Positions 2,597 through 63,436 of a DNA stretch of 64,000 bases are shown here, piece by piece. The stretch covers positions 3,796,001 through 3,860,000 of the forward strand of contig NZ_LN831790.1 in NCBI RefSeq assembly GCF_001013905.1, written 5' to 3'. How positions within the stretch are numbered: the first letter of the stretch is position 1; every line of letters starts with the position of its first letter. Source of the DNA: Streptomyces leeuwenhoekii. GTDB lineage: Bacteria > Actinomycetota > Actinomycetes > Streptomycetales > Streptomycetaceae. A program made the translations under genes and the position numbers. Under the pieces are notes generated by a model that was given only the letters and a program-made list of their open reading frames with translations, was not told where the DNA came from and made no database searches.

Positions 2597-4176
2597 CGTG
2601 ACATCTCCCCGAGTTCCTCGCGCCCTTCGCCGGACGGGCCCACCCGCGGGATCACGTCCTTGGCGGCCAGGCGCCCCTTGTCGTCGAAACAGAGCCTGAA
2701 GTGGTCGACGGAGACCAGCAGTTCGCCGCTCGACCGGTAGTAGCGGCAGGTGGTGCCCGCCGGCGGCGGCGCGGGCGCGCGGTCGGTGGGCGGGTCGCGC
2801 ACCTCCCGCTCCGGCAGCACGCGCGCGACCTCGCCGGCCGGCGCGCCCGGGCGCAGCCCGGCGTACGCGCTCGGCTCCAGCACGGAGCGGGTCTCGGTGT
2901 AGGCGTACCAGCCGAAGGCCGCGCCCACCAGCACGGCGCCCGCGCCGGCCGCGGCCCCCAGGCCGAGGGCGACACGGCGGCGGGCACGGGTGAGGGGAAA
3001 GGCCGCGGGACGGGCCTCCCGGGGCGCCGGACGGGCCTGCCGCACGGGCACCCGGGCGCGGACCCGGAAGCCCTCGCCGTGCGGCCCCGCCTCGAACACG
3101 CCGCCGACCGCGGTGACGGCGGCCCGCAGGCCGAGCAGCCCCGAGCCGCCCGAGGAGCGGGAACCCGCCTCGGTGGCGCGCTGGTTGGTGACGGTCACGA
3201 CCACGTCGGGGCCGTGCCGGGCGACCGCGACGGCGACGGGGGCGCCCGGCGCGTGCCGGGCCGCGTTGGTCAGCGCTTCGCGCACCACCCGGTGCAGCAG
3301 CCGCTCGGCCACCCCGCCGGACGGCAGCGCCGTGTGGCCGCCGGACGGCTCCCAGCGCACGGCGAGCCCCGATTCGGCGGCGCGGGCGACGAGTTGCTCC
3401 ACGGTCTCGCCCGCCGGGGTCAGCGGGACGGGCTCGTCGTCCTCCCGCAGGACGCCGATGATGCGGTGCAGCCGGTCCGTGGCGTCGGCGGCGGCGGACC
3501 GCAGGTCGGCCGCGGCGGCCCGGTGCTCGTCGGCGAGGCCGGGGGCGACCTGGAGCGCGCCGGCCCGCAGGGCGATCAGGCTCAGCTCGTGCCCGAGGGA
3601 GTCGTGCATGTCCTGGGCGATACGGGCCCGCTCCCGCAGCCGGGCCCGTTCCTCGGCGTGCCGCTGCTCGTCCTCCAGGCGGGCCGCGCGCAGCCAGCCC
3701 GCCTCGGCCAGTTCGCGGCTCTGCCGCCAGTAGCGTCCGCAGAGCCAGGGGAAGACGCAGCCGAACAGCAGCGTGCCGGTCATGACCAGGAACTCGGGGG
3801 CCGGGTCGACGCCGGTGAGCGCGATCTTCGCGGTGCCGGCGCCGGCGACCGAGGCGAAGCACACCGCCGCGGGGCGCGCTCCGGCCGCCCGCAGGCCGAG
3901 CAGCAGGGCGAGGACGCCGAGGGCCGGGCCGTAGGCGACGGTGAACAGGGCGGGGGCGTCGGCCAGGCTCAGGGCCGCCGTCAGCGCGAACGCCGTGAGC
4001 GGCCGGCGCCGGGACACGCCGACGGCCACGGCGAGGACCGCGACCCCGGCCGCCGGCCACCAGGCGGCGCGCGGCTCGTTCAGCCCGAGCCGGTCGGCGG
4101 TGAGCGCGGGCAGCGCGAGGACCGCCCAGAGCAGGCAGGCCGGCCCGGCGCGGCGGCGTTCGGGAGGGCGTGGCAT
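2593..4176 (-). CDS. Histidine kinase (HisKA_3 type) with extra C-terminal membrane domain
   Basis: A 527-aa sensor kinase. Residues 1-165 hold four to five membrane helices. The dimerisation/phospho-acceptor segment reads AQDMHDSLGHELS, with the His typical of NarX/DesK-type kinases. The ATP-binding domain has EALTNAARHA (N box) and SGLLGLRAAV (G box). Unusually, the protein continues past the kinase for about 140 residues: a basic linker, one more hydrophobic helix, then a roughly 95-residue exported domain with two cysteines (TTCRYY, FRLCFDD) and a DDKGRL turn. Most kinases of this class end at the G box, so this tail is probably a second sensor module. It is coupled to the response regulator gene by a 4-bp overlap. 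Confidence 0.92.
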   Translation of the reverse strand: MPRPPERRRAGPACLLWAVLALPALTADRLGLNEPRAAWWPAAGVAVLAVAVGVSRRRPLTAFALTAALSLADAPALFTVAYGPALGVLALLLGLRAAGARPAAVCFASVAGAGTAKIALTGVDPAPEFLVMTGTLLFGCVFPWLCGRYWRQSRELAEAGWLRAARLEDEQRHAEERARLRERARIAQDMHDSLGHELSLIALRAGALQVAPGLADEHRAAAADLRSAAADATDRLHRIIGVLREDDEPVPLTPAGETVEQLVARAAESGLAVRWEPSGGHTALPSGGVAERLLHRVVREALTNAARHAPGAPVAVAVARHGPDVVVTVTNQRATEAGSRSSGGSGLLGLRAAVTAVGGVFEAGPHGEGFRVRARVPVRQARPAPREARPAAFPLTRARRRVALGLGAAAGAGAVLVGAAFGWYAYTETRSVLEPSAYAGLRPGAPAGEVARVLPEREVRDPPTDRAPAPPPAGTTCRYYRSSGELLVSVDHFRLCFDDKGRLAAKDVIPRVGPSGEGREELGEMSR

Positions 4177-4294: not shown

Positions 4295-5326
4295 ATGACT
4301 GCGCCCACGAAGCCCCCGCACTGCGGTCCGGCCGCCCGGCCCGCCGCCGCCCCCGCTCCCGCCGACCCCGCCGCCGCCCCCGGCACGCCCGCCGTCGCCG
4401 CCTCGGACGCTCCCGGCGCACGCCCCGCGGATTCCGTGGCGGAGCGCGCCCTCGGGGAGCCGTTGCACGCTCCCGTCATCGACTGGTTCGACGAGAACGC
4501 CCGCGACCTGCCGTGGCGGCGCCCGGAGGCCGGCGCGTGGGGCGTGATGGTGAGCGAGTTCATGCTCCAGCAGACGCCGGTGAGCCGGGTGCTGCCGGTC
4601 TACGAGCAGTGGCTGGCCCGCTGGCCGCGCCCCGCCGACCTGGCCCGCGAGGCCCCCGGCGAGGCCGTGCGCGCCTGGGGCCGGCTCGGCTACCCGCGCC
4701 GCGCGCTGCGGCTGCACGGCGCCGCCGTCGCCATAACGGAGCGGCACGGCGGCGACGTACCGGCCGACCACGCCCAGTTGCTGGCGCTGCCCGGCATCGG
4801 CGAGTACACGGCCGCGGCGGTGGCCTCCTTCGCCTACGGCCAGCGGCATCCGGTGCTGGACACCAATGTCCGCCGGGTCCTGGCCCGGGCCGTCACCGGT
4901 GTGCAGTACCCGCCGAACGCGACCACCGCCGCCGAGCGCCGGCTGGCCCGCGCGCTGCTGCCGGACGACGAGGGGACCGCCGCCCGCTGGGCCGCCGCCT
5001 CGATGGAGCTGGGCGCGCTGGTGTGCACGGCGAAGAACGAGGCGTGCCACCGCTGCCCGATCGCCGCGCGCTGCGCGTGGCACCTGGCGGGCAAGCCGGA
5101 GCACGACGGACCGCCGCGCCGCGGCCAGACGTACGCGGGTACGGACCGCCAGGTCCGCGGCCGGCTGCTCGCCGTACTGCGGGAGGCGCCCGGTCCGGTG
5201 TCGCAGGCGGCCCTGGACCGGGTGTGGCACGAACCCGTCCAGCGGGCCCGCGCCCTGGACGGGCTGGTCGCGGACGGTCTGGTGGAGCCGCTGCCGGGCG
5301 GACGGTACCGGCTGCCGCTCACCTGA
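4295..5326 (+). CDS. mutY: A/G-specific adenine DNA glycosylase
   Basis: A 343-aa base-excision-repair enzyme that removes adenine mispaired with 8-oxoguanine. After a disordered Pro/Ala-rich N-terminus (about 1-60), the HhH-GPD core is clear: catalytic Glu region SEFMLQQT, helix-hairpin-helix LPGIGEYTA, catalytic Asp in VLDTNVRRVLA. The [4Fe-4S] loop has cysteines spaced C-x6-C-x2-C-x5-C in CTAKNEACHRCPIAARC. The C-terminus is short and looks like a winged helix, not the long NUDIX-like 8-oxoG-recognition domain of E. coli MutY; the actinobacterial forms I know are similarly short. The ATG at 4295 is chosen. The gene is divergent from the two-component pair. Confidence 0.95.
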   Translation: MTAPTKPPHCGPAARPAAAPAPADPAAAPGTPAVAASDAPGARPADSVAERALGEPLHAPVIDWFDENARDLPWRRPEAGAWGVMVSEFMLQQTPVSRVLPVYEQWLARWPRPADLAREAPGEAVRAWGRLGYPRRALRLHGAAVAITERHGGDVPADHAQLLALPGIGEYTAAAVASFAYGQRHPVLDTNVRRVLARAVTGVQYPPNATTAAERRLARALLPDDEGTAARWAAASMELGALVCTAKNEACHRCPIAARCAWHLAGKPEHDGPPRRGQTYAGTDRQVRGRLLAVLREAPGPVSQAALDRVWHEPVQRARALDGLVADGLVEPLPGGRYRLPLT

Positions 5327-60553: not shown

Positions 60554-61414
60554 TCAGATGAGTTGGAGAAGTCCCCGCAGCAGGTCCCGGCTCTCGTCCG
60601 GGCCCGGCCCGTCCTGCTGGAGCTCCTTCAGCGCCGTCTCGTACTGGGCGACGTCCTCGCGCTTGTCGAGGTACAGGGCGCTGGTGAGCTGCTCCAGGTA
60701 GACCACGTCGGACAGATCGGACTCCGGGAAGCTGAGGATCGTGAACGCGCCGCTCTCGCCGGAGTGCCCGCCGAAGCTGAACGGCATGACCTGGAGCCGC
60801 ACGTTGGGGCGCTCGGACATCTCGATCAGGTGCTGGAGCTGGCCGCGCATCACCTCGCGGTCGCCGTACGGGCGGCGCAGGGCGGCCTCGTCCAGGACGA
60901 TGTGGAACTCCGGCGCGTTCTCCGCGTCGAGGTACTTCTGGCGCTCCAGGCGCAGCGCGACCCGCCGCTCGACGTCGGCCTGGCTCGCGCCCTTCATGCC
61001 GCGCCGGACGACCGCGCGGGCGTACTCCTCGGTCTGCAGCAGCCCGTGCACGAACTGCACCTCGTAGACGCGGATCAGCGAGGCCGCGCCCTCCAGGCCC
61101 ACATAGGTGGGGAACCAGCTCGGCAGCACGTCGGAGTAACTGTGCCACCAGCCGGCGACGTTGGCCTCCTTGGCCAGCGACAGCAGGGAGGAGCGCTCCT
61201 GCTCGTCCGTGACGCCGTACAGCGTCAGCAGGTCCTCCACGTCCCTGGTCTTGAAGCTCACCCGGCCCAGCTCCATCCGGCTGATCTTCGACTCCGAGGC
61301 GCGGATCGAGTAGCCCGCCGCCTCGCGGGTGATCCCCTTCGCCTCACGCAGTCGCCTGAGGTGTGATCCGAGCAGCATGCGCCGCACCACCGATCCCGGC
61401 TCTCCCGCGCTCAC
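60554..61414 (-). CDS. XRE-family regulator with DUF5753 domain
   Basis: A 286-aa DNA-binding protein of the WhiJ/AbaA-ORF type. The helix-turn-helix (LGSHLRRLREAKGITREAAGYSIRASESKISRMELGRVSFKTRDVEDLLTLYG) occupies about 15-70 and the actinobacterial DUF5753 domain fills the rest (WFPTYVGLEGAASLIRVYEVQFVHGLLQTEEYARAVV; LRLERQKYL; MPFSFGGHSGESGAFTILSFP). The GTG at 61414 is chosen because GGGGAGG lies 9 bases upstream. Together with the ATPase and DUF397 genes it forms a regulatory trio of the kind that affects development in S. coelicolor. Confidence 0.93.
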   Translation of the reverse strand: MSAGEPGSVVRRMLLGSHLRRLREAKGITREAAGYSIRASESKISRMELGRVSFKTRDVEDLLTLYGVTDEQERSSLLSLAKEANVAGWWHSYSDVLPSWFPTYVGLEGAASLIRVYEVQFVHGLLQTEEYARAVVRRGMKGASQADVERRVALRLERQKYLDAENAPEFHIVLDEAALRRPYGDREVMRGQLQHLIEMSERPNVRLQVMPFSFGGHSGESGAFTILSFPESDLSDVVYLEQLTSALYLDKREDVAQYETALKELQQDGPGPDESRDLLRGLLQLI

Positions 61415-61611
61415 GTTCGCCAGCCTCCCCAACCGTCTTCAAGGGCCGCAGTCTGCCACTAAAACACTCCGAGCAGTACTCGCCCGGATACGCAGACGGA
61501 AACGAGTGGGGCGATCCGCGCAGAAGGGGCGGGGGCAGCCCCTCCGCGCTCCGCCGCGTTCCCCTTCCCGATCCCTCCCGGGCCTTTTCTGTTCCCCTCG
61601 CGTGGCCTTTC

Positions 61612-61663
61612 CCGGCCCCTTCGGCCCCTTCCCGGCCCCTTCCCGGCCCCTTTCCCGTCCTTC
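61612..61663. repeat. Pyrimidine-rich CCCTTCCCGG repeat
   Basis: Four to five copies of CGGCCCCTTCC-type units lie in tandem in the noncoding region between the XRE and ATPase genes. Confidence 0.7.
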
Positions 61664-61736
61664 TCGGCCTCTTTCCGCGCCCGGAGATGGTGGAAAAATT
61701 GACCAACAAGCGGTGCGGGAGGGTCCATTTCGGTCA

Positions 61737-61764
61737 CGTGCACGTGCATCTGCCCTTGCATCTG
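61737..61764 (+). promoter_or_regulatory. Shared 28-bp motif, copy A (ATPase gene)
   Basis: The motif starts CGTGCACGTGCAT, continues with a TGC-x-C centre and ends in TGCA-xx-TG. It matches copy B before the DUF397 gene at 23 of 28 positions and lies about 75 bases before the ATG. A CATGGT hexamer at 61782-61787 may be the -10. Confidence 0.7.
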
Positions 61765-61838
61765 GTCTGCGCATCGGAAACCATGGTCCCCGCACCACCG
61801 CCGCATCGCTACGACCGCGAATTCCGGGAGTGCCTCGC

Positions 61839-62339
61839 ATGGGGACGAATGGATCGACCATGCTCGAGCCGTTAAGGCAGGGCCTTCCGCCACTGGACCC
61901 CGCGGCCGTCGACAACGCCGCCTCCTGTGCCCTCCCCGCCCGCTACGAAGCGGTGGGCGAGGCCCGGCGGTTCACCCGCAGAACGCTCGACCAGTGGGAG
62001 CTCGGCGACCGCTTCGAGGACGTGTGCCTGGTCGTCTCGGAACTCGTCACCAACGCCCTGCGGCACGCCCTGCCGGCCGACGGGCCGGGAGCGGACGACC
62101 CGGAGCCGCCGGTGCGGCTGCATCTGATGCGCTGGACCGACCGGCTGGTGTGCGCGGTCCGCGACCGCAGCCACGAGGGCCCGGTCGCCCGCGAGGCCGA
62201 CGACTTCTCCGCGGAATCCGGCCGGGGACTCTTCCTCGTCGGCTCCTTCAGCGACGGCTGGGGCTGGCACCCGCTCGCCGGGCCGCTGGAGGGCAAGGTC
62301 GTCTGGGCGCTGTTCCGACTGCGGCCGCCCGGCGCGTGA
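61839..62339 (+). CDS. RsbW-like ATPase/anti-sigma-type protein, TTA-containing
   Basis: A 166-aa HATPase_c protein of the Streptomyces anti-sigma/SpoIIAB-like kind. N box VVSELVTNALRHALP, G1 box VRDRSHEGP and G2 box SAESGRGLFLVGSFSDGWGWHP are readable. The ATG at 61839 follows GGGAG at 8 bases. Codon 12 (61872-61874) is TTA, the rare leucine codon read by the bldA tRNA, so translation probably awaits development. It belongs with the XRE and DUF397 genes. A partner sigma factor is not in view. Confidence 0.92.
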   Translation: MGTNGSTMLEPLRQGLPPLDPAAVDNAASCALPARYEAVGEARRFTRRTLDQWELGDRFEDVCLVVSELVTNALRHALPADGPGADDPEPPVRLHLMRWTDRLVCAVRDRSHEGPVAREADDFSAESGRGLFLVGSFSDGWGWHPLAGPLEGKVVWALFRLRPPGA

Positions 62340-62504
62340 CCCGCCGCGGCGCTTTCGGGCGCCACGGCTCTACGCGCGTCACGGCGCGCGACGACTCCGC
62401 CGCGGCCGGTGACGGGGGCCGGCCGCGGCGGACCCTGCGCCGGGGCGCCGCGCACACGGCGGCGACGCGCGCGACGGGGGCGAAGGCCGTCCGGGCGCGG
62501 GCGC

Positions 62505-62600
62505 GGCCACAGGTCCGGCCACAGGTCCGATCACGGATTCGGCGGCAGGTCCGATCACGGCTCCGGCGACAGGTCCGGCCACGGCTCCGGCCGCGGTCAG
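62505..62600. repeat. Short repeats downstream of DUF397 gene
   Basis: ACAGGTCCGGCC/ACAGGTCCGATC-type units of 12-15 bp recur about six times just after the DUF397 stop. The 257 bases between the ATPase and DUF397 genes otherwise hold nothing I recognise. Confidence 0.7.
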
Positions 62601-62896
62601 CTCGCGATCAGGTGGTCGAACTCCCCGTCCTTAACCCCCAGCAGCATCGCCTCGATCTCGGCGCGGGTGTAGACGAGCGCGGGCCCGTCGGGAAAGCGGG
62701 AGTTGCGCACGGCGACGTCCCCGCCGGGCAGGCGCGCGAACTCCACGCAGGATCCCTGGGAGTTGCTGTGCCGGCTCTTCTGCCAGGCCACCCCGTGCAG
62801 TTCCGTGGCCGCCATGCCGTTGTACACGGCGGACGCGCGGACACCGTCGTACACCTCACCGTCGTACACGTCACCGTCGTACACGTCGTGGTCCAC
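62597..62896 (-). CDS. DUF397 protein
   Basis: A 99-aa protein of the DUF397 family, small partners of XRE/DUF5753 regulators. The domain reads LHGVAWQKSRHSNSQGSCVEFARLPGGDVAVRNSRFPDGPALVYTRAEIEAMLLGVKDGEFDHL. The GTG at 62896 is chosen because GGGGAG lies 6 bases upstream; a longer ATG reading adds 22 nonconserved residues. The N-terminus has three VYDGD/VYDGE units from a 15-bp repeat. The promoter has TATGAT and the shared 28-bp motif. Confidence 0.92.
   Translation of the reverse strand: MDHDVYDGDVYDGEVYDGVRASAVYNGMAATELHGVAWQKSRHSNSQGSCVEFARLPGGDVAVRNSRFPDGPALVYTRAEIEAMLLGVKDGEFDHLIAS
62841..62888 (-). repeat. 15-bp tandem repeat in DUF397 gene
   Basis: Three copies of a GTCGTACACGTCACC unit (plus strand) encode VYDGD on the minus strand. 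Copy number changes would keep the frame. Confidence 0.85.
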
Positions 62897-62957
62897 AGGT
62901 CGCTCCCCGGTGGTGCACTGGCTGGTGTGGCCATTGATGCAGTGGTCAACTGTCCGG

Positions 62958-62963
62958 ATCATA
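62958..62963 (-). promoter_or_regulatory. -10 element of the DUF397 gene
   Basis: TATGAT on the minus strand, about 60 bases before the GTG, one base from the ideal -10. The matching -35 position falls inside the shared motif. Confidence 0.6.
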
Positions 62964-62978
62964 GCCCGCTTTCACGAG

Positions 62979-63006
62979 CATCTGCATGAGCAAATGCACG
63001 TGCACG
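62979..63006 (-). promoter_or_regulatory. Shared 28-bp motif, copy B (DUF397 gene)
   Basis: On the minus strand the motif again begins CGTGCACGTGCAT and ends TGCAGATG. It matches copy A at 23 of 28 positions and lies about 83 bases before the GTG, overlapping the -35 region of the TATGAT promoter. Confidence 0.7.
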
Positions 63007-63124
63007 CGGTGTGCTCCTGCGATTACAGCCATGACGGCCGCTGTACCGAAAACCCCGACCTCTTTGATGCCGGTTGCGGCGGACTCGTTCCTGCTATGCC
63101 CGCAATTTCTGTGAATATGCAACA

Positions 63125-63160
63125 ACATGGGGGCCCGCTCGGCGGAGCGGGCCCCCATGT
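63125..63160 (-). terminator. Terminator after rpsR2
   Basis: A perfect 16-bp stem (63125-63140 with 63145-63160) with loop GGCG lies about 43 bases after the rpsR2 stop. Confidence 0.88.
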
Positions 63161-63202
63161 GACACACCGTCAACTCGGTGACGGGTGAGGCGGATGTGCC
63201 GG

Positions 63203-63436
63203 TCAGCGGGCTGCGTAGGGCAGCAGCGCCATCTCCCGGGCGTTCTTGATCGCCCGGGCGAGCTGCCGCTGCTGCTGGGCCGACACCCGGGTGACGCGGC
63301 GGCTGCGGATCTTGCCGCGGTCGGAGATGAACTTCCGCAGCAGATCGGTGTCCTTGTAGTCGATGTACGTGATCCCGGCCAGGTCCAGCGGGTTCGGCCG
63401 GTTCTTGGCGGGCTTGCGGTCGAGCTTGCGGGGCAT
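63203..63436 (-). CDS. rpsR2: 30S ribosomal protein S18, zinc-independent paralogue
   Basis: A 77-aa S18 ([61 protein letters not shown]). It has no cysteine, so it lacks the zinc ribbon of the standard form. Such C-minus paralogues replace zinc-binding ribosomal proteins during zinc starvation and are repressed by Zur. It lies 6 bases after the CobW-like gene and ends at a strong terminator, consistent with a Zur-controlled operon that starts beyond the window. Confidence 0.95.

Follow-up and report, generated by a model that had tools for sequence, protein, structure and literature searches.

A conserved pair of palindromic operator-like elements in a whiJ-abaA-bldB-type cluster of Streptomyces leeuwenhoekii, most likely read by the neighbouring WhiJ-like regulator

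WhiJ, AbaA and BldB genes form regulatory clusters that are heavily multiplied in Streptomyces and affect both development and the production of antibiotics. In the literature examined, as far as the accessible passages go, a binding site within the regulator's own cluster has been mapped for WhiJ9 alone: in S. venezuelae it binds three direct repeats CGXXCTCAAC, 113 bp upstream of the point where iosA transcription starts (Avramova et al. 2023, PMC10294661, in the passages available) and is required for the activation of iosA in a bldB mutant. According to the same passages, abaA paralogues go up when BldB is lost, and in two-hybrid tests most BldB paralogues interact with BldB itself, BldB2 and BldB10 doing so weakly and BldB7 not at all. 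For the whiJ cluster SCO4542-4544 of S. coelicolor, a DUF397 partner was proposed to keep WhiJ off DNA (passages of PMC6262351). Here we describe two copies of a short element, one before an abaA-like gene and one before a bldB-like (DUF397) gene, in 64,000 nt of the Streptomyces leeuwenhoekii genome (contig NZ_LN831790.1, positions 3,796,001 to 3,860,000; this whole stretch is called the window, and coordinates are counted from its first letter). The copies appear to form a conserved operator pair, a site of the WhiJ9 kind in a variant form, and the WhiJ-like XRE protein encoded beside them is its most likely reader.

The gene for this XRE protein occupies 60554-61414 on the reverse strand. 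A Pfam scan, run on the longer frame 60554-61432, found an N-terminal XRE helix-turn-helix (HTH) domain (HTH_31, PF13560, 57 bits) and DUF5753 (PF19054, 206 bits). The adjoining abaA-like gene, at 61839-62339 on the forward strand, encodes an anti-sigma-factor-like HATPase_c_2 protein (PF13581, 48.6 bits), and the bldB-like DUF397 gene (PF04149, 67.2 bits) lies nearby at 62597-62896 on the reverse strand. Judged by these domains, the XRE protein is a WhiJ paralogue and the cluster is of the whiJ-abaA-bldB type. The start of the DUF397 gene, GTG 62896, was picked by reading the sequence; the Pfam scan used a longer frame reaching 62962, where an in-frame ATG overlaps the TATGAT hexamer described below and is unlikely to be the start.

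As in the iosA-whiJ9 system described in PMC10294661, a WhiJ-like XRE regulator adjoins a BldB paralogue, and a short repeated intergenic element goes with a neighbour gene that is regulated there and predicted to be regulated here. Unlike the WhiJ9 site, the element consists of a palindrome, TGCACGTGCA, with a half-site, and stands before two promoters, those of abaA and of the bldB paralogue. The WhiJ9-type repeats CGXXCTCAAC have no match in the 64-kb window, and an operator of that type was rejected. The same three kinds of genes make up the SCO4542-4544 cluster, where release of the XRE protein by its DUF397 partner was proposed (Ainsa 2010, as cited in passages of PMC6262351 and PMC4255298); that cluster has a different paralogue, and the passages concerned describe no operator in it.

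An earlier, sequence-only reading of this DNA had pointed to copies of a 28-bp motif at 61737-61764 (forward strand) and 62979-63006 (reverse strand), identical at 23 of 28 positions and sharing an opening stretch. Both were located as it said, with CGTGCACGTGCAT as the common opening, and the spacing it gave to the start codons (75 bp to ATG 61839 and 83 bp to GTG 62896) is right. When the two intergenic regions were simulated with a first-order Markov model, the best 28-mer match did not exceed 22 positions, and 23 of 28 was reached in none of 500 trials. The 8.12-Mb genome contains two exact matches to TGCACGTGCATNTGC and exactly two to the two-box form TGCACGTGCA-N8/9-TGCA, in both cases these copies; in the shuffled window the two-box form has a mean of 0.00. 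If up to two mismatches are allowed, TGCACGTGCATNTGC has 33 + 25 matches genome-wide, fewer than the 62 + 53 of the reversed-pattern control, so the looser matches are background. That the copies resemble each other by chance, or arose when promoter DNA was recently duplicated, might be suggested by the position of both sites in intergenic DNA of one locus, but the simulations, the differing flanks of the two copies and the retention of the element in varied gene orders and genera (see below) leave such an origin next to no probability.

The element is best described as a predicted operator composed of the palindromic box TGCACGTGCA and, 18 (or 19) bp further along, a second TGCA. Operator A, on the abaA side (61739-61766, forward strand), has its box at 61739-61748 and the second TGCA at 61757-61760. 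Operator B, on the DUF397 side (62971-63004, reverse strand), has its box at 62995-63004 and the second TGCA at 62983-62986; it is longer than had been noted, continuing as a third unit, TGCTCGTGAA, to about 62971. Operator A sits in the divergent region shared by the XRE and abaA genes, 325 bp from the XRE start; a copy before the XRE gene, where the sequence-only reading saw none, is thus not strictly absent. A weak −10-like hexamer, AACCAT (NANNAT), is found at 61779-61784 on the forward strand, 40 bp from the start of box A, and the −10 hexamer of the DUF397 promoter, TATGAT, at 62958-62963 on the reverse strand, 41 bp from box B. Of the suggestion that copy B overlaps the −35 of a TATGAT promoter, the TATGAT part stood, but no consensus −35/−10 pair was detected in a scan of 61400-63250, and a consensus sigma-70 promoter near either gene was rejected.

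To follow the element within the genus we used 80 Streptomyces loci, the best 80 of 551 confirmed relatives picked by XRE similarity, with XRE proteins 91-96% identical. The conservation check proposed with the sequence-only reading came out in its favour, as TGCACGTGCA is kept on both the abaA and the DUF397 sides in 80/80 orthologous loci. Positions 0-10 of the element are invariant on both sides, and several bases at +27 to +30 of operator A vary. On the abaA side the offset from the box to the −10-like hexamer is 40 in 73 loci and 41 in seven; one extra base in the second unit was likewise seen in 7/80. TATGAT follows the DUF397-side box in all 80 loci, at an offset of 40 in 70, of 39-42 in 77 and of 52 in the remaining three, which carry one extra 12-bp unit. 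Much of the abaA leader around operator A is conserved as well. Since these are close relatives and the surrounding leader is kept too, the 80-locus set taken by itself is weak evidence.

A wider test was made in a class-wide sample of 197 genomes, 56 of which have the XRE protein at E ≤ 1e-80 (116 matches). Forty loci were fetched; for the k-mer count Streptomyces loci L201-L205 were left out, while L206, of the same genus, and the closely related L181-L186 were kept, giving 35. Among all 10-mers upstream of cluster genes, TGCACGTGCA is the commonest, present in 28/35 loci versus 7/35 for the best 10-mer of random stretches from the same loci. The broader form TGCAYRTGCA could be located within the DNA fetched for 36/40 loci (none in L200, L210, L213 and L218). 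In 70 side views of 35 hand-picked box sites, a further TGCA was found at +18 in 17, +19 in 13, +24 in six and +25 in five, other offsets being seen three times at most. Gene order differs among the fetched loci, so the motif does not simply follow synteny, and additional XRE copies in other families come with boxes of their own. The two-box pattern gives 110 matches in the 56 XRE-bearing genomes, where the reversed control gives 29; 45 of the 56 have one or more two-box matches. After strand duplicates were merged by hand, 77 of 116 TGCACGTGCATNYG sites in these genomes lie within 4 kb of an XRE match (47/82 outside Streptomyces). The 16 Streptomyces genomes have 30 of 34 such sites at the locus itself, and a wider regulon in Streptomyces was rejected on this count; at least three of the four off-locus sites are inside predicted genes.

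Coupling to the XRE gene is tighter within the family, taken as Streptomycetaceae and sampled with 61 genomes: 95 of the 106 two-box sites there have an XRE match no more than 4 kb away, and among the 59 genomes with the XRE gene 56 contain such a site. Four of the 11 remaining sites were fetched, and all four turned out to be in an XRE/DUF397/ATPase cluster, with the XRE of one reading in two frames. At locus L325 (about 3046-3884 and 4447-5013) the XRE matches are in two overlapping pieces and the ATPase matches in two pieces, as if both genes were broken, while the boxes and the DUF397 gene remain. Among 18 other family loci from 15 genera, 14 have the DUF397-side box and 17 a relaxed abaA-side box.

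These observations point to the neighbouring XRE protein as the reader of the element: the box is kept at orthologous loci, is the commonest upstream 10-mer and, in its two-box form, is found near XRE orthologues. We consider it highly probable that the WhiJ-like XRE protein binds both operators. The proposal of the sequence-only reading that one regulator, the product of the neighbouring XRE gene, serves both genes is in this way supported by the 80 loci and by the persistence of boxes beside XRE orthologues in other genera and families. Several findings weigh against it. The 80 loci are closely related and were chosen by XRE similarity, so the species are not independent. Outside Streptomyces, 35 of the 82 box sites in the class are more than 4 kb from any strong XRE match; when 36 far box loci (32 of them outside Streptomyces) were fetched, five had a cluster gene nearby, one had a weak XRE match nearly 3 kb off and 30 showed no cluster gene. 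Of the 18 family loci, four lack the DUF397-side box, and one of these four lacks any box in the scanned stretch. One could suppose that another regulator, encoded elsewhere, reads the motif, given the boxes away from cluster genes in other families and a two-box site in 30/141 class genomes with no strong XRE match (by subtraction, from a tally of 75 genomes). Still, the S. leeuwenhoekii genome has just two sites, both beside the XRE gene, and within the family the motif moves with that gene across genera and gene orders; we regard a distant reader as quite improbable. In one non-Streptomyces genus, off-cluster boxes (L251, L257, L262; L254, L261) recur near a sensor-kinase-like gene and near a glycosidase-like gene, names read from the sequence without a family search.

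The XRE protein contains the HTH segment SESKISRMELGR, which is kept in orthologues; as S[EHA][SA]K[IM]SRxELG[RQ] it is conserved among them and different in paralogues of the same genome, and we take it for a putative recognition helix, assigned without a structure (the PDB yielded no solved relative at E up to 1). The same segment also occurs at loci having no box, which counts against the proposed pairing and makes it weak evidence. Within the S. leeuwenhoekii genome the exact box TGCACGTGCA is absent from all 16 other XRE-paralogue stretches and, among 24 DUF397-match stretches (some overlapping), is present only at this locus, roughly 1.5-kb flanks being included in both cases. A general WhiJ operator was rejected accordingly. 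The earlier suggestion that the motif would be a readout of XRE/DUF397/ATPase systems generally is thus too wide, with none of 16 paralogue stretches carrying it and one sister cluster having a related box.

The position of the box relative to the promoter gives hints about the sign of regulation. In what follows, −10 candidates come from a hand-made weight matrix, and positions are given relative to these putative hexamers. On the abaA side of 18 family loci, a relaxed box, TGCA[CT][AG][TG]G[CA]A-N8/9-TGCA (defined after the Streptomyces offsets had been viewed; seven of the 17 found are TGCACGTGAA or TGCACGGGAA), precedes NANNAT by 39-41 bp in 17 loci, and by 40 bp in 14 of them, as compared with 178 of 8208 control positions. 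The first T is absent from all 17 hexamers. Eight loci (L307, L310, L313, L315, L319, L320, L321 and L322) have a second operator-like array 39-40 bp further up, about four helical turns. The fixed distance, the weak −10 and the lack of a consensus −35/−10 pair are activator-like, and activation is, by a small margin, the more likely sign of XRE action at abaA. On the DUF397 side of family loci, a strong hexamer, TATCAT (TAGACT in one), follows the box by 16-17 bp in eight loci belonging to six genera; the hexamer is 23 bp after it in two, 34 bp after in two (with further boxes at other distances) and 36-37 bp before in two. Boxes so placed mostly overlap or abut the core promoter, which fits a repressor, and repression of the DUF397 gene by the XRE protein seems reasonably likely from this geometry.

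A less uniform picture comes from 40 hand-assigned promoters, of which 16 are abaA (15 outside the family), 23 DUF397 (one from Streptomyces) and one XRE, two of the 40 being from Streptomyces. The −10 candidates are 21-26 bp before the box in 18 cases (none on the opposite strand), 33-37 bp before in seven (versus one) and 21-26 bp after in five (versus none). The best candidate is 21-26 bp before the box in 10 abaA, six DUF397 and one XRE promoter (one of these DUF397 promoters has a slightly better candidate 11 bp before), 33-37 bp before in six DUF397 and one abaA promoter, and 23 bp after in five DUF397 promoters; four abaA promoters and one DUF397 promoter have no candidate. Two points here speak against opposite signs at the two genes. 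Ten of the 16 abaA promoters, all 10 from outside the family, have the candidate 21-26 bp before the box, a repressor-type position, so activation of abaA cannot be general. Moreover, the Streptomyces operators A and B are each about 40 bp from their hexamers, TATGAT in the case of B, so opposite signs are not evident in this genus; the third unit of operator B is 16-17 bp from TATGAT.

Two simpler schemes were weighed against these data. The XRE protein could simply repress both genes as an autoregulated repressor of its cluster, with the DUF397 protein lifting the repression. Many of the sampled promoters (of both genes outside the family, of DUF397 genes inside it) do have the operator across the −10 candidate or downstream of it, a sister operator described below has TATTAT about 26 bp upstream of its box, and WhiJ itself was proposed to be a repressor until released by its DUF397 partner (Ainsa 2010, as cited in passages of PMC6262351 and PMC4255298). 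Repression, on the other hand, needs neither the weak −10 with an operator fixed at 39-41 bp in 17/18 family abaA promoters nor the second array of eight of them, and we hold this scheme unlikely. The protein could instead activate both genes from a class-II-like site, a scheme favoured by the two Streptomyces boxes, each preceding its −10 by about 40 bp (offset 40 or 41 at A; at B, 40 in 70/80 loci), and by the lack of a consensus −35/−10 pair; WhiJ9, too, is needed for iosA activation (passages of PMC10294661). At the DUF397 promoters of other genera, though, the box precedes the −10 candidate by 16-17 bp or follows it by 21-37 bp, positions from which a bound protein would be expected to obstruct polymerase, and activation of both genes appears rather improbable.

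What we favour is a local switch, in which the two copies are operators bound by the XRE protein, with abaA activated, DUF397 repressed and feedback between the products; as a whole we judge it probable. The XRE protein would bind TGCACGTGCA and, more weakly, the TGCA half-site 18 bp further on at both promoters. Bound at a fixed 40 bp before a weak −10 with no recognisable −35 it would activate abaA, and bound against or across the DUF397 core promoter it would repress that gene. The DUF397 protein, a BldB paralogue, would antagonise the XRE protein and so close a feedback loop, a step drawn from published WhiJ/BldB genetics to which we give an even chance. The element would be a second operator for clusters of this kind; its conservation reaches past the genus, and it belongs to one paralogue. 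It provides exact DNA targets and predicts which promoters are activated and which blocked. No report of this operator appeared among the papers listed for DUF397 binding, WhiJ/BldB, the locus tags and TGCACGTGCA, a set mostly without subscription papers.

The conservation approach offers a way to read operators of other paralogues, and sister clusters provide a case. The S. leeuwenhoekii genome has TGCAWWTGCA at five places, and two further XRE/DUF397 loci account for three of these. Upstream of one sister DUF397/XRE pair (G000:C3:533244, L287:2745) we found TGCAATTGCA with a half-site 18 bp on. This cluster, near 533 kb of C3, occurs in 13 of 61 Streptomyces genomes; TGCAATT[GT]CA followed by GRGAAATTGC is kept in 12 of the 13 orthologous loci, and TATTAT lies about 26 bp before the box. 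Judged by this conservation, an operator-like element that shares the layout but differs at its centre is present in at least one sister cluster. At the second sister locus (L288), TGCAATTGCA and TGCAAATGCA stand at G000:C3:2950829 and 2951286, two of the five TGCAWWTGCA sites; the cluster matches at E 1e-90 in just one other of 61 genomes, and TGCAATTGCA is present in one of the two loci. We tentatively suggest, as a conjecture rather than an expectation, an operator code in which this WhiJ subfamily would read TGCA-CG-TGCA plus a half-site at +18 and its sisters TGCA-AT-TGCA, the distance to the −10 setting the sign: abaA (40 bp) activated, the antagonist gene (16-17 bp) repressed.

The Pfam scan also identified a ribosomal S18 gene at the locus. 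Its counterpart in S. coelicolor we take to be a neighbour of SCO3424. With this presumed position and the match to the description in passages of PMC4255298, the window probably corresponds to the SCO3421/SCO3423/SCO3424 locus of S. coelicolor, the XRE protein being orthologous to SCO3421. No operator for that cluster was found in the accessible parts of the literature on these locus tags. Both sco3424 and SCO3423 are listed among sigma-E targets (passages of PMC6767563 and PMC10771440). As for toxicity of the DUF397 protein by itself, which a type II toxin-antitoxin system would require, fourteen other DUF397 proteins of S. coelicolor had no clear effect on viability (passages of PMC10364602); the table of that paper does not include the pair of this locus.

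Further features were seen around the cluster genes. Codon 12 of the abaA-like gene (61872-61874) is a TTA codon of the bldA type, and 77 of 80 orthologues contain an in-frame TTA. By reading of the sequence, a long G+C-rich hairpin at about 63126-63159, absent from the terminator listing, separates the S18 gene from the DUF397 promoter. Short repeats are found at about 62845-62890, in the 5′ part of the DUF397 frame, and at about 62510-62600, just 3′ of the DUF397 gene.
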